This document shows positions 23,096 through 40,141 of a DNA stretch of 64,000 nt, one piece after another. Below the pieces are notes generated by a model, which was not told where the DNA came from, made no database searches, and was given only the letters and a program-made list of their open reading frames with translations. A program made the translations under genes and the position numbers. Numbering within the stretch: position 1 is the stretch's first letter; every line of letters starts with the position of its first letter. This DNA comes from Kineococcus xinjiangensis (lineage in GTDB: Bacteria; Actinomycetota; Actinomycetes; Actinomycetales; Kineococcaceae): assembly GCF_002934625.1 (NCBI RefSeq), contig NZ_PTJD01000001.1:62001-126000 (forward strand), given 5' to 3'.

Positions 23096-24703
23096 TCAGC
23101 CGGCGAGGACCAGCCGGTCGCGCCCGCCCGCCTTGGCGGCGTAGAGGGCGGCGTCGGCCGCCGCGATCAGTGAGCGGGCGTCGGCCCCGTCGGCGGGGAA
23201 GACCCCCACGCCGGCGGAGAGGGTCACGGTGATGCTGATCCCGTGGCCGGTGGCACCCGGGAGGCTCCCCGACTCCGGCGAGCGGCACGGGAGGGGAACG
23301 GGAACCGGACGGGTGCTGCAGCCGGCCCGCAGCTCCTCCGCCCGCCGCAGTGCGGTGTCGCGGTCCGCGGCGTCGAGGAGCACGACGAACTCCTCCCCGC
23401 CGTAGCGGGCCACGGTGTCCCCGTCGCGGGTGCCGGCCCGCAGGGACTGCGCGACCGCGCACAGCACCTCGTCGCCGGTCTGGTGGCCGTGGGTGTCGTT
23501 GACGGACTTGAAGTGGTCCACGTCGAGGATGACCAGCGCCACGGGCCGCCGCTCGGCCAGGGTGGTCTCCAGCACGCTCATCAGGTGGCGGCGGTTGTGC
23601 AGGCCGGTCAGGGCGTCACGGATCGCGTCCTCGCTGAGGCGCTCCTGCAGGGCCTGGATGGTGCTCAGCTGCTCCCGCAGGCGCCGGTCGGCCACCACGG
23701 ACTCGCTGACGTCCCGGGCGGTGACGACCCGCGCCAGCACGGCGCCGCGGGAGTCCTGCTGCAGGCGGCAGCGCACGTCGAGGTGCAGGCCCTCGGCGGC
23801 CTCCAGGGTCTGCTGCCCCTCCCCCGCGGCCAGGGTGCGCAGGCGGGGGTCGGTCAGCACCGCCTCGGCGGGCAGGCCCAGCACCCCGGCGGGCAGCGCG
23901 GGCTCCAGGCGCCTCAGCAGGGTGTCGGCGGCCGGGTTGGCGTCCACGAGGCGGCCGCAGTGGTCGAGGACCAGCACGGCGTCCTCGAGGGCCTCCACGA
24001 TCTGCGAGCGCGCCAGGGGCACCACCCGGCGCCGGGCCTGCCGGGCGATGACGTAGGCGAAGAGGAGGGCCGTGACGAGGAAGAAGAAGGGCGTGCCGTC
24101 GACGCCGCGCAGGTCGGCGGGGAGGCTCAGCGCCACGACGTTCAGCGGGACCGGCAGCAGCGTGGCGAGGATCGAGAAGCCGATCGGCTTGCGGAACACC
24201 CACGAGGCGCGCCACCACGCCCGCGCCAGCCGGCCGAGCCCCACGAGGAAGAGGCCGTAGCAGTAGGCGGCGTGCACCCAGAACAGCGGCCCGAACTCCC
24301 ACGCCGACGCGGCGTCGGGGCCGCTCGGCACGAGGAACGCGCGGTGCCAGGGGTTCGTGGCCACGAGGGCGAGGATCACCGCGGGGGCGGCGGCGAAGCG
24401 CGTGACGGTGGTGCGGGTGGGCCGCCACGTCGGCTCCGCCACCGACCAGGCCACGCAGACCAGCGCCGCCATGGCGGCGTTGATCGCGGTGTACTGGACC
24501 ACGTGGAGGACGGCCTCGACGGCGGGCGAGGCCGCGAGGCGGGCGAGGCCGTCGCTCGCGGTCCACAGGCCGATCGCGGTGAGGGCCGCCGTCAGCGACC
24601 CTGCGGTGCGGATGCGGCGGCGCCCCCGCCACGCCCAGGTGGCGGTGAGCACAGCCACGGCGGTCGCGACGGAGAACGCGGCGGCGATCGCTGTGCCCGT
24701 CAC
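23096..24703 (-). CDS. 7TM-PAS-GGDEF diguanylate cyclase, paralogue 1
   Basis: A 535-residue membrane protein. Residues 1-225 hold seven hydrophobic helices like the N-terminal 7TM sensor of some histidine kinases; about 235-350 is a PAS-like domain (EALEDAVLVLDHCGRLVDANPAA is its core); a short coiled coil leads to a GGDEF domain from about 365. The active-site motif is GGEEF and the inhibitory site RDGD lies five residues upstream, so c-di-GMP synthesis with product inhibition is expected. Unlike its paralogues it has an extra loop after the active site (near SPESGSLPGATG). The GTG start follows aggaggtgg. A FliA-like promoter sits 46 bases upstream. Confidence 0.92.
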   Translation of the reverse strand: MTGTAIAAAFSVATAVAVLTATWAWRGRRRIRTAGSLTAALTAIGLWTASDGLARLAASPAVEAVLHVVQYTAINAAMAALVCVAWSVAEPTWRPTRTTVTRFAAAPAVILALVATNPWHRAFLVPSGPDAASAWEFGPLFWVHAAYCYGLFLVGLGRLARAWWRASWVFRKPIGFSILATLLPVPLNVVALSLPADLRGVDGTPFFFLVTALLFAYVIARQARRRVVPLARSQIVEALEDAVLVLDHCGRLVDANPAADTLLRRLEPALPAGVLGLPAEAVLTDPRLRTLAAGEGQQTLEAAEGLHLDVRCRLQQDSRGAVLARVVTARDVSESVVADRRLREQLSTIQALQERLSEDAIRDALTGLHNRRHLMSVLETTLAERRPVALVILDVDHFKSVNDTHGHQTGDEVLCAVAQSLRAGTRDGDTVARYGGEEFVVLLDAADRDTALRRAEELRAGCSTRPVPVPLPCRSPESGSLPGATGHGISITVTLSAGVGVFPADGADARSLIAAADAALYAAKAGGRDRLVLAG

Positions 24704-24748: not shown

Positions 24749-24777
24749 TCATCGGTACGTTCGGGCGCTTGCCTGAG
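24749..24777 (-). promoter_or_regulatory. FliA-like promoter of diguanylate cyclase 1
   Basis: On the minus strand CTCA (24777-24774) is followed after 17 bases by ACCGATGA (24756-24749). This resembles FliA (sigma-28) promoters of motile actinomycetes, CTCA then GCCGA-type -10. The same element, spacing and distance occur before the other two paralogues. Transcription would start about 40 bases before the GTG. Confidence 0.55.
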
Positions 24778-24806
24778 CGGGCCGCCGCGGGCGCCGCCGG
24801 ACGGGC

Positions 24807-26381
24807 TCAGGAGGTGGCGCAGACCACGCGGTTGCGGCCGCCGGCCTTGGCGGCGTACAGCGCGGCGTCCGCGGCGGCCACCAGGGCGCGCGCGTCGGCG
24901 CCGTCGGCGGGGTGGACGGCCACCCCGGCGGAGATCGTCACGGACAGCGTGCGCGGGTCCTCGCCCACGATGATCGGGACCTTCGTCGCCTGGCAGCGGG
25001 CGCGGATCTGCTCGGCCCGCCGCATGGTGGCCTCCACCCCGGCGCCGGGCAGCAGCACGACGAACTCCTCCCCGCCGTAGCGGGCGACGGTGTCGCCCTC
25101 GCGGGTGCCCTCCAGCAGCGAGTGCGCCACGGCGACGAGCACGTCGTCGCCGGTCTGGTGGCCGTGGGTGTCGTTGACGGACTTGAAGTGGTCCACGTCG
25201 AGGATCACCAGGCCCACCTGGTCGCCCGTGGCCAGCACGGCGTCCAGCACGGCCATCAGGTGCCGGCGGTTGTGCAGCCCCGTCAGCGGGTCGCGGATCG
25301 CGTCCTCCTGCAGGCGCTCCTGCAGGTCCTGGATGGTGCTGAGCTGCTCGCGCAGCCTGCGGTCGGCCAGAACGAGGTCGCTGACGTCGCGGGCGGTGAC
25401 GACGCGCGCCAGCAGGTGCCCGCGGTCGTCCAGGTGGACGCGGGAGCGCAGGTCCATGTGCAGGCCCCGGGCGAGTTCGAGGGTGCGCTGGCAGTTGTCC
25501 TCCAGCAGCGGCCGCACGGCCTCGTGGTGGAAGATCTCGTCCGCCGAGAGCCCGACGATCTCCTCGGGCAGGTCCTTGCGCAGACCCCTCACCAGGCTGC
25601 GCGCGGCGGTGTTGGCGTCCACCAGGCGGCCGGAGTGGTCGATGACGAGGACCGCGTCCTCGAGGGTGTCCACGACCTGCGAGCGGGCCACCGGCACGAC
25701 CTGCAGCAGGCCCTGGCGGAAGAGGGCCCGTGCCATCAGCGCGCCGGTGAAGACGAAGAAGACGGGCGTGTAGTCGACGCCGTGGAAGATGACCCGCTGG
25801 CTCAGCGTCACGGCGTTGAGGCCGGTGGGCAGCAGCGTCGCGAGGATGATGCTGCCGATCTGCTTCCGGAAGATCGACGACGCCCGCCACCACTCACGGC
25901 CCAGCCGGACGAGGATGTAGCCGAGCAGCGCGTAGGAGTACGCCGTGTGGGCCCAGAAGGCCGGACCGAACTCGACCTCGGGGTAGACGCCGGTGGGCGC
26001 GATCGCGCGGAAGAACTGCCCGTGGAGCGGGTTGGTCGCCGCGACCAGCGTGACGAGGACCGGCACGATCGACAGGCCGACCACAGTGCGGCGGCGCGGC
26101 CGCCACGCGGGGTCGACCACCGCCCAGCTCAGCATGACCGTGGCGGCGATCATCACGTGCTTGGCGGGGTAGGCGAGGACGACGAGGGCCTGCTCGAGGA
26201 CCGGCGGCATGCCGGCGTGGAGGACGCCGGCGCTGGCGGCCCACGTGGCGGCGCCGCTCAGGAGCACCGCGAGCGCGGTGGCGGCGGGGGTGACGTCCCG
26301 GCGGCGCCACGATCCGAACGCGGTGCCGACGCAGATGAGCGCTGCGGCGAGGAAGACGGCGACGACTACTCCGGTGGTCAC
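24807..26381 (-). CDS. 7TM-PAS-GGDEF diguanylate cyclase, paralogue 2
   Basis: A 524-residue protein with the same layout as its neighbours: seven-helix membrane sensor to about residue 225, PAS-like domain to about 350 (DTLEDAVLVIDHSGRLVDAN), then coiled coil and GGDEF. The catalytic motif is GGEEF and the I-site is REGD, five residues upstream. The segment FFRAIAPTGVYPEVEFGPAFW in the membrane part differs from the other copies and may reflect a different signal. The GTG at 26381 follows gaggaggaacc. It has its own FliA-like promoter, so the three copies are probably expressed together but not as one strict operon. Confidence 0.92.
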   Translation of the reverse strand: MTTGVVVAVFLAAALICVGTAFGSWRRRDVTPAATALAVLLSGAATWAASAGVLHAGMPPVLEQALVVLAYPAKHVMIAATVMLSWAVVDPAWRPRRRTVVGLSIVPVLVTLVAATNPLHGQFFRAIAPTGVYPEVEFGPAFWAHTAYSYALLGYILVRLGREWWRASSIFRKQIGSIILATLLPTGLNAVTLSQRVIFHGVDYTPVFFVFTGALMARALFRQGLLQVVPVARSQVVDTLEDAVLVIDHSGRLVDANTAARSLVRGLRKDLPEEIVGLSADEIFHHEAVRPLLEDNCQRTLELARGLHMDLRSRVHLDDRGHLLARVVTARDVSDLVLADRRLREQLSTIQDLQERLQEDAIRDPLTGLHNRRHLMAVLDAVLATGDQVGLVILDVDHFKSVNDTHGHQTGDDVLVAVAHSLLEGTREGDTVARYGGEEFVVLLPGAGVEATMRRAEQIRARCQATKVPIIVGEDPRTLSVTISAGVAVHPADGADARALVAAADAALYAAKAGGRNRVVCATS

Positions 26382-26430
26382 CGGTTCCTCCTCGTGGCAC
26401 GGGGCCCGCGGACGCGGGCTGCTCCCTGTC

Positions 26431-26459
26431 TCATCGGCAGCCGCGGGACGGAGCCTGAG
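26431..26459 (-). promoter_or_regulatory. FliA-like promoter of diguanylate cyclase 2
   Basis: CTCA (26459-26456) is followed after exactly 17 bases by GCCGATGA (26438-26431) on the minus strand, the best match of the three. The -10 end is 50 bases before the GTG start. Confidence 0.6.
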
Positions 26460-26475
26460 CGGATGGCGGCGTTCG

Positions 26476-28074
26476 TCACCGGGCGAGGACGACGCGGTTG
26501 CGCCCGCCGGCCTTGGCGGCGTACAGCGCGGCGTCCGCGGCGGCCACCAGGGCGCGCGCGTCGGCGCCGTCGGCGGGGTGGACGGCTACCCCGGCGGAGA
26601 TGGTCACGGACAGGCTGCGGGGCCCGTCGGCGCCCACCAGCGGCACGACGGTGGCCTCGCAGCGGGTGCGGATCTGCTCCGCCCGCCGCATGGTGGCCTC
26701 CACCCCGGCGCCGGGCAGCAGCACGACGAACTCCTCCCCGCCGTAGCGGGCGACGGTGTCGCCCTCGCGGGTGCCTGCCAGCAACGAGTGCGCCACCGCG
26801 CACAGCACGTCGTCGCCGACCTGGTGGCCGTGGGTGTCGTTGACGGACTTGAAGTGGTCCACGTCCATCAGCACCAGGCCCACCGGCTCGCCGGTGGCTG
26901 CGGCGTCCGCCAGCGCCCGGTCCAGGGAGGCCATCAGGTGCCGGCGGTTGTGCAGGCCCGTCAGCGCGTCCCGCACCGCCTCCTCCTGCAGCTGCTCGCG
27001 CAGCTCCTCGATGGTGGCCACGTGCTCGCGCAGCGCCCGGTCCGCGGCGACCGCCTCGCTGACGTCGCGGGCGGTCACCACCCGCGCCAGGAGGTTGCCG
27101 CGCGCGTCGACGTGGACGCTGGAGCGCAGGTCCAGGTGCAGGCCGGGCGCCACCTCGACGATCCGCTGGCAGGTCTCCTCCAGCAGCGGCCGCACCTCGG
27201 GCCGGCGCAGGACCTCCCGCGCCGGCAGGCCGACGAGCTCGGCGGGCAGGTCGGGGCGGATCCGTCGGATCATCGTCTGCCCGGCGCGGTTGACGTCCAC
27301 GACGCGCCCGGCGTGGTCGACGACGAAGACGCCGTCCTGCAGGGTGTCCACGACCTGCGCCCGCGCGACCGGCACCACCTGCAGCAGGCCCTGCCGGAAC
27401 AGCGCCCGCGCCATGATCAGGCCGGTGAGCACGAAGAAGACGGGGGTGTAGTCGACGCCGCTGAAGACCTGCGGCGCGCTGAGGGTCACGGCGTTCAGCG
27501 CGGTGGGCAGCAGGGCCCCCGCGATGAGGCTGCCCAGCTGCTTGCGGAAGATCGACGACGCCCGCCACCAGCCGCGCACCAGGCGCGCCATCGACCAGGT
27601 CAGCAGCGCGTAGCAGTAGGCGGAGTGCGCCCAGAACGCCGGCCCGAAGACCAGCTTCGGGTACCCGGCGGTGTCCTCGTAGCCGCTGTAGAAGAGGTGG
27701 TGCCAGGCGTCGGTGGCCACGACCAGCACGACGACGGCCGGGACCAGCGCGAGCACGGCGAGCGTGCGGCGCCGCAGCCGCCAGGACGGGTCGACGACCG
27801 CCCACGTCATGCACAGCGTCGAGGCGATGAGCAGGTGGATCGCGGCGTAGTTGACGACGTGGACCACCCGCTCGGCGAGCACCGGCACGCCCAGGTGCAG
27901 GAGCCCGGCGCACGCGGCCCAGCCCCCCGCCCCGGCCATCAGCGCAGCGAGCGCCGTCGCGGCGGGGGTGATCCGCCGGTGCCGCCACGACCATCCCGCG
28001 GTGGCCCCGCAGAGCAGGGCCGCGAGGAGGAAGACGACGATGCCCGCCGATGGGATCTCCGCTGGTGCGCTCAT
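26476..28074 (-). CDS. 7TM-PAS-GGDEF diguanylate cyclase, paralogue 3
   Basis: A 532-residue paralogue, first in transcription order. It has a seven-helix sensor (residues 5-225), PAS-like domain (DTLQDGVFVVDHAGRVVDVN), coiled coil and GGDEF domain with active motif GGEEF and I-site REGD. Its GGDEF-coding 3' end is nearly identical at nucleotide level to that of paralogue 2, while the sensor parts have diverged, so the output is held constant and the input varied. The ATG at 28074 follows gaggaggtcacg. The gene is preceded by a third FliA-like promoter. Confidence 0.92.
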   Translation of the reverse strand: MSAPAEIPSAGIVVFLLAALLCGATAGWSWRHRRITPAATALAALMAGAGGWAACAGLLHLGVPVLAERVVHVVNYAAIHLLIASTLCMTWAVVDPSWRLRRRTLAVLALVPAVVVLVVATDAWHHLFYSGYEDTAGYPKLVFGPAFWAHSAYCYALLTWSMARLVRGWWRASSIFRKQLGSLIAGALLPTALNAVTLSAPQVFSGVDYTPVFFVLTGLIMARALFRQGLLQVVPVARAQVVDTLQDGVFVVDHAGRVVDVNRAGQTMIRRIRPDLPAELVGLPAREVLRRPEVRPLLEETCQRIVEVAPGLHLDLRSSVHVDARGNLLARVVTARDVSEAVAADRALREHVATIEELREQLQEEAVRDALTGLHNRRHLMASLDRALADAAATGEPVGLVLMDVDHFKSVNDTHGHQVGDDVLCAVAHSLLAGTREGDTVARYGGEEFVVLLPGAGVEATMRRAEQIRTRCEATVVPLVGADGPRSLSVTISAGVAVHPADGADARALVAAADAALYAAKAGGRNRVVLAR

Positions 28075-28125
28075 CGTGACCTCCTCCCCCGTCCCGCCCC
28101 CGGCGGCGCCGAGAGTCCTGGGAGG

Positions 28126-28154
28126 ACATCGGCACGCGCGGGGCGGGAACTGAG
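28126..28154 (-). promoter_or_regulatory. FliA-like promoter of diguanylate cyclase 3
   Basis: CTCA (28154-28151), 17 bases, then GCCGATGT (28133-28126) on the minus strand. The -10 end is 52 bases before the ATG. Confidence 0.55.
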
Positions 28155-39913: not shown

Positions 39914-40141
39914 TCAGGCTGTGCGGTCCTGCTGCGCCAGCCAGGTGTCGACCTCGGCGAGACCGTCCTCGACGTAGCGGCGGCGGGAGCGGCCGCGCGG
40001 CATCGGGATGCGGGCCGCGTGCGGCGGGGCGTCCACCGCGGGCAGCAGGTACGGGCTGGCAGCGCTGCGGCGGGCACGGCGTTCGAGCGCCGCGGGAACG
40101 AGGAAGCAGGCCAGCAGAGCGATGAGGAGGAAGGTCGCCAT
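39914..40141 (-). CDS. Small single-span membrane protein, 75 residues
   Basis: I do not recognise a family. One hydrophobic helix fills residues 3-18 (TFLLIALLACFLVPAAL), followed by a basic, Arg-rich tail (ERRARRSAA) and a short acidic end (LAEVDTWLAQQ). The basic residues after the helix predict the C-terminus inside. It is divergent from the spermidine-synthase-like gene by 97 bases. The ATG start has no strong binding site, so the call is moderate. Confidence 0.6.
   Translation of the reverse strand: MATFLLIALLACFLVPAALERRARRSAASPYLLPAVDAPPHAARIPMPRGRSRRRYVEDGLAEVDTWLAQQDRTA

Follow-up and report, generated by a model that had tools for sequence, protein, structure and literature searches.

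The 64,000-nucleotide (nt) stretch of the Kineococcus xinjiangensis genome analyzed here (contig NZ_PTJD01000001.1, positions 62,001 to 126,000; hereafter the window) carries three tandem genes for predicted diguanylate cyclases (DGCs), the enzymes that would make cyclic diguanosine monophosphate (c-di-GMP). Upstream of each gene lies a site that resembles a promoter of the flagellar class of sigma factors. A sequence-only reading of this DNA had reported one CTCA-N17-(G/A)CCGATG per paralogue, 46 to 52 bases from the start codon, and our search reproduced that arrangement at 46, 50 and 52 nt, measured from the end of the -10 element to the start codon; the start coordinate it gave, 24749, is off by one base (24750). 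The sites and genes are listed below, where 7TM stands for seven-transmembrane and aa for amino acids.

24750 to 24777, minus strand: promoter-like site a, CTCA-N17-ACCGATG, 46 nt upstream of cyclase a; weight-matrix score 22.9, p 0.002.
23096 to 24703, minus strand: cyclase a, predicted 7TM-PAS-GGDEF protein, 535 aa; PF16927, PF00990; RDGD I-site, GGEEF.
26432 to 26459, minus strand: promoter-like site b, CTCA-N17-GCCGATG, 50 nt upstream of cyclase b; weight-matrix score 24.5, p 0.002.
24807 to 26381, minus strand: cyclase b, predicted 7TM-PAS-GGDEF protein, 524 aa; PF16927, PF00990; REGD I-site, GGEEF.
28127 to 28154, minus strand: promoter-like site c, CTCA-N17-GCCGATG, 52 nt upstream of cyclase c; weight-matrix score 21.7, p 0.002.
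26476 to 28074, minus strand: cyclase c, predicted 7TM-PAS-GGDEF protein, 532 aa; PF16927, PF00990; REGD I-site, GGEEF.

With both strands of the window searched, these are the only three matches to CTCA-N17-RCCGATG, all on the minus strand, where 0.07 would be expected; none of 100 shuffles gave three or more. All three cyclase open reading frames score above cut-off for the 7TM (PF16927) and GGDEF (PF00990) families, and PAS is above cut-off in two of them and slightly under it in cyclase a. Each protein has the GGEEF active-site motif and an RxxD at the I-site position, as expected of DGCs, so we predict cyclase activity for the whole trio. The genes are paralogues, with cyclases b and a sharing 69% and 55% identity with cyclase c. 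The sites, however, are mostly unlike one another outside the two boxes: pairwise identity is 0.47-0.65 in the spacer, 0.33-0.47 in the 30 nt downstream and 0.29-0.64 upstream. Shared ancestry of the trio as the sole source of the sites was therefore rejected.

The arrangement extends to other members of the family. We scanned the ten full-length 7TM-GGDEF genes of the genome with a weight matrix from whose training set the trio and their paralogue on contig C2 had been excluded. In nine, the top-scoring site has spacing 17 and lies 42-68 nt before the predicted start (shuffle p <= 0.02). The -35 element is CTACAG or CTTCAG in four of those nine. A second tandem array, of four 7TM-GGDEF genes, lies on contig C10 (L111:2941-9957), and a CTACAG-type site at spacing 17 precedes three of the four.

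Genome-wide, CTCA-N(16-18)-RCCGATG occurs at 47 sites in 4.62 Mb. When the gap was opened to 6-36 the count rose to 158, with 32 sites at N17, 13 at N16 and 2 at N18, against an average of 4.0 at the remaining 28 spacings (Poisson P 1e-18 for the N17 count). To annotate all 47 sites, we trained a codon-model gene finder on this genome. Thirty-one, including 24 of the 32 at N17, lie between genes and at most 250 nt from a predicted start on their own strand, with no opposing gene intervening; 11 fall within predicted genes. For comparison we took 47 control-spacing sites, namely those in 40 purpose-fetched stretches, two further stretches and the window, out of 111; seven qualify by the same rule and 37 lie inside genes (Fisher P 7e-7 against 31 of 47). 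We relied on spacing and position because the -10 element contains TAG when reversed, a triplet avoided in coding DNA, and the reversed-pattern control (47 against 16) was discarded as evidence. A separate search for CTCAAG-N-GCCGA gave 44 matches, with 26 in its reversed control; it was read at 30 loci and kept out of the statistics. The motif has a GCCGAT-like -10, a CTAA/CTCA-type -35 and a fixed spacing, as in flagellar-clade promoters. The CTCA form and the extra spacing, relative to the classical one, differ from the literature consensus of the class. The Actinoplanes consensus to which the sequence-only reading likened the sites did not turn up in the library searched. In four of the 31 cases exactly 8 nt separate the end of the -10 from the start codon, as at fliM and fliA, a layout that leaderless transcripts would show.

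Pfam was run on 30 of the 31 downstream genes; the product of the remaining one, of 53 residues, was compared with NCBIfam only and had no match. Eighteen are flagellar, chemotaxis, two-component or c-di-GMP genes. Six of these encode GGDEF proteins (the trio, one more 7TM-GGDEF protein on C2 and two others), and there are one EAL-DICT gene, four genes for methyl-accepting chemotaxis proteins (MCPs), four histidine-kinase-like genes and one for a receiver protein; exact sites also head two flagellar operons, flbD and flgN. Against a background of about 92 GGDEF genes (counted from 100 matches) among about 4,100 genes (estimated from the gene density of the window), six of 31 is an enrichment with P 5e-5. 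The flagellar genes are located at C7:1-37k and C16:1-5k, where near-consensus sites stand upstream of flgB, flhA, fliM and a fliA-like gene, so that with flbD, flgN and the four MCP genes this promoter class is found before both flagellar and chemotaxis genes. The sequence-only reading had named enrichment at such genes as a check on its proposal, and computationally the motif passes: it is spacing-specific, lies before gene starts and precedes flagellar and chemotaxis genes. Its FliA-like promoters hold up as promoters of the flagellar clade, while FliA as their reader, rather than WhiG, is not settled. The flagellar cluster also encodes a PAS-GGDEF protein and one that resembles PilZ/YcgR. 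CTCAAG...GCCGATC stands 8 nt upstream of the start of an EAL-GGDEF gene that is not among the 31. A fliH site before fliI (C7:13948) was left out of the 31 since it lies within coding sequence.

Some of the genes behind the motif encode short proteins without a Pfam or NCBIfam match (at loci L014, L027 and L030), and the protein at L014 has a relative behind the same motif in another genus (L365 in genome G008, E 6e-44). NCBIfam gave no match for four small proteins, nor for the RsiG homologue described below. Elsewhere in the window, at 39914 to 40141 on the minus strand, a gene is predicted for a 75-residue protein that may have a membrane segment. A flagellar-type site, CTGAAG...TGCCGAGG, lies 8 nt upstream of its start and has the top matrix score among 54 other window genes.

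Eleven genomes from another genus of the same family have 29-47 sites each. In G008, where all 44 sites at N16-17 were read, 35 lie between genes and no more than 250 nt from a start. The genes that follow them include flagellin and fliQ (identified with Pfam), flbD and flgN (local profiles), a type IV pilin-like gene, an MCP gene in three copies and another of MCP type, as well as six GGDEF genes, of which Pfam identified three, NCBIfam one and a local profile two. The start of one chemoreceptor gene recurs at L265, L269 and L369, on three contigs of G008, and the promoter site is identical each time; the triplication is either a repeated element or an assembly duplicate.

Two sigma factors are candidates for reading these sites. 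The gene at C1:225360-226214 encodes WhiG by the equivalog model NF004935 (435.4 bits, cut-off 343), and its closest match in the PDB is the WhiG of the Streptomyces RsiG complex. The product of C16:387-1274 falls under the FliA/WhiG family cut-offs (TIGR02479, 184 bits against 189.6; NF005413, 171 against 201), and we call it FliA-like because it adjoins flgN-flgK-flgL-fliW and its best PDB match is 1rp3. Of 19 genomes, the 15 with a WhiG-class gene are also the 15 with a FliA-class gene. According to PMC8325347, WhiG shares flagellar promoter specificity, and the consensus of the class is TAAA / GCCGATAA. The reader may thus be FliA, WhiG or both, which the sites by themselves do not tell apart.

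The genome also encodes a homologue of RsiG, on C17 (E 7e-12 by helix profile); its gene and whiG both lie outside the 64 kb window. The protein is similar to Streptomyces venezuelae RsiG over residues 15-193 of 198 (6pfj_T, E 8e-24), matches PF22802 in two stretches (91.2 bits, cut-off 27) and has two E(X)3S(X)2R(X)3(Q/H)(X)3D motifs, at residues 48 and 157, as twin-motif RsiGs do. Of 12 RsiG loci read, 11 match both c-di-GMP motifs exactly. RsiG was found in 14 of the 15 genomes with WhiG and FliA, the miss being a 700-contig draft, and was absent from the other four of the 19, discounting one 21-residue match at E 0.03. FlgM (PF04316) was found in none of the 19, ours included, while three of 14 control genomes were positive, so these genomes lack the recognizable FlgM of a classical FliA-FlgM circuit. 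In Streptomyces WhiG the c-di-GMP contacts are K57, G61 and R62 (PMC8325347). Our WhiG keeps the K, G and R, as do 15 of 15 WhiG loci read, suggesting that c-di-GMP-dependent RsiG-WhiG binding may occur in this organism. The FliA-like protein has G, S and E at these positions, here and in five of five others read; since FliA lacks the contact residues, we expect RsiG to hold WhiG only.

Taken together, we consider it likely that a flagellar-clade sigma factor uses the three sites as promoters and that the cyclases belong to a genome-wide motility, chemotaxis and c-di-GMP regulon. We hypothesize that an active sigma factor (FliA and/or WhiG) would co-transcribe the flagellar operons, the chemoreceptors and several DGCs, and that the cyclases would then produce c-di-GMP as dictated by signals at their 7TM and PAS parts. 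Flagellar expression may in this way drive c-di-GMP synthesis by three sensors at once, as the sequence-only reading had supposed. As the likeliest consequence, c-di-GMP would arm RsiG, which would sequester WhiG, and it may brake the flagella through the PilZ/YcgR-like protein of the flagellar cluster. We hold the feedback part of this model, with its negative sign and the exit from motility, much more tentatively than the promoter assignment.

Several observations weigh against the regulon as proposed. Thirteen of the 31 genes have no evident tie to motility or signaling: an aconitase-family (leuC-like) gene, MarR, GH6, an amidase, a T2SSE ATPase, a phage-type zinc finger, NHL, a periplasmic binding protein and five small or unassigned proteins. 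Sites matching the motif precede the leuC-like gene in both genera (L004:1501-1527; L366 in G008). The match, which was kept in the 31, overlaps what looks by eye like a palindrome and is probably a site, perhaps an operator, of some other regulator and not a promoter. The list therefore contains false positives. With the trio counted once, the GGDEF enrichment is modest (4 of 29, P 0.003). A contig end cuts off our own flagellin promoter, and the flagellin evidence comes from G008. The spacing control covers our own genome, and the figures for relatives are raw site counts; the most raw matches, 52, occur in an order relative (G017) that has no match to a WhiG/FliA-class sigma factor, RsiG or GGDEF, so raw counts fail as a discriminator across relatives. 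Among the 7TM-GGDEF orthologues of relatives, three of 17 have a site at p <= 0.02 and two more at 0.025, and a scan of the available loci found the exact motif upstream of none of the relatives' 7TM-GGDEF genes; the idea of a site common to all the orthologues therefore failed. The 300 nt upstream of whiG and of rsiG have no significant site (p 0.40 and 0.09), so a loop would act through protein activity rather than through transcription of these genes. Finally, the case for sigma dependence and promoter use is drawn from sequence.

Some of these points would fit an account in which the sites are not promoters of the flagellar class, being instead chance matches in GC-rich DNA or operators left from duplication of the paralogues. 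Coding sequence that is rich in GC often contains CTCAAG and GCCGATG, the cyclase genes are paralogues, the leuC-like match sits on its apparent palindrome and G017 is rich in matches without the sigma factors. The strict spacing, the intergenic placement and the functional coherence of the downstream genes are not what this account predicts, nor are spacers and flanks that mostly differ or sites before flagellar genes in two genera, and we find it very improbable.

The choice of sigma factor is harder to make. FliA of the flagellar cluster might be the sole reader, with c-di-GMP acting post-transcriptionally (for example, through the PilZ/YcgR-like protein encoded in that cluster) and RsiG-WhiG running something separate, such as spore or pilus formation, without sigma feedback; in that case the RsiG-WhiG loop would not exist. 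The near-consensus site 8 nt before the start of fliA is expected of autoregulation, and G, S and E at the contact positions suggest that RsiG should not hold FliA. However, WhiG is said to have the same promoter specificity and accompanies FliA in every one of the 15 genomes, and with RsiG in 14 of them and FlgM in none of the 19, FliA alone would have no recognized brake. We regard this arrangement as quite possible, if short of probable. A WhiG-only scheme, as in Rubrobacter, in which a developmental programme includes the cyclases and switches on fliA, leaving flagellar genes under indirect control, is in our view unlikely. It would suit the full-strength equivalog match of WhiG, the WhiG-type promoters before Rubrobacter DGC and phosphodiesterase (PDE) genes, and the sites before the T2SSE ATPase gene here and the type IV pilin-like gene in G008, but the structural flagellar operons carry the site, which fits FliA equally well.

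Returning to the regulon with RsiG-WhiG feedback, we speculate that in Kineococcus-type actinobacteria this switch replaces FlgM as a self-limiting timer of the motile stage, a proposal we would not yet call probable. Low c-di-GMP would release WhiG, WhiG and FliA would switch on flagella, chemoreceptors and a battery of DGCs, and the c-di-GMP made by those cyclases would re-arm RsiG and turn the programme off. With this promoter class and a seemingly intact RsiG/WhiG pair, the circuit is concrete enough to test, and it would carry over to flagella a switch familiar from sporulation and type IV pili. It bears on two published observations: the FliA without FlgM of Kineococcus radiotolerans, which might be under novel regulation (PMC2587704), and the increase in GGDEF enzymes among actinobacteria that are flagellated or form zoospores, for which the available passages of a 2023 survey give no promoter mechanism (PMC10746217).

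The link between motility and c-di-GMP, which the sequence-only reading did not know to have been described in this group, is not wholly new, given the WhiG-type promoters of Rubrobacter and FliA in Pseudomonas putida. Promoters of this class before DGC/PDE genes are known from Rubrobacter; for flagellated Kineococcus-type bacteria, our searches of the open-licence literature found no report of a WhiG-promoter/DGC-PDE link and no paper combining RsiG with 'Kineococc'. The RsiG families in the available text of PMC8325347 are without Kineococcus relatives, and its supplementary table may include individual Kineococcus RsiGs. The motility island of K. radiotolerans is the nearest in gene content, with similar flagellar genes, csrA and FliA, no flgM, and FliA control left open in the sections available (PMC2587704). 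Those sections name no WhiG, GGDEF enzymes or such promoters, however, and a term search of the main text returned no occurrence of 'whiG', 'GGDEF' or 'diguanylate'.

In P. putida, according to the available passages, FliA partly controls the c-di-GMP phosphodiesterase BifA (PMC5300878), so there a flagellar sigma factor transcribes a c-di-GMP enzyme, as we propose here. It is a single phosphodiesterase that lowers c-di-GMP and favors swimming, whereas our genome has several cyclases predicted to raise it. Streptomyces venezuelae shares the twin-motif RsiG and a WhiG with the K, G and R contacts (6pfj, 6pfv; PMC13232838, in the part available), but there, as the sections at hand of PMC8325347 describe it, RsiG-WhiG governs sporulation in a nonmotile organism. 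The closest parallel is the RsiG-(c-di-GMP)2-WhiG system of Rubrobacter radiotolerans, which likewise has WhiG, RsiG and flagellar-type promoters before several DGC/PDE genes. In the portions available, Schumacher et al. 2021 place WhiG-type promoters upstream of five Rubrobacter DGC/PDE genes and suggest feedback loops, and 12 of 20 predicted sites in R. radiotolerans were confirmed as promoters by start mapping (PMC8325347). The other main targets in Rubrobacter are type IV pili, its RsiG has a single motif and its starts are mapped, whereas the putative promoters described here are known from sequence and belong to a genome with a twin-motif RsiG, flagella and a second, flagellar FliA.

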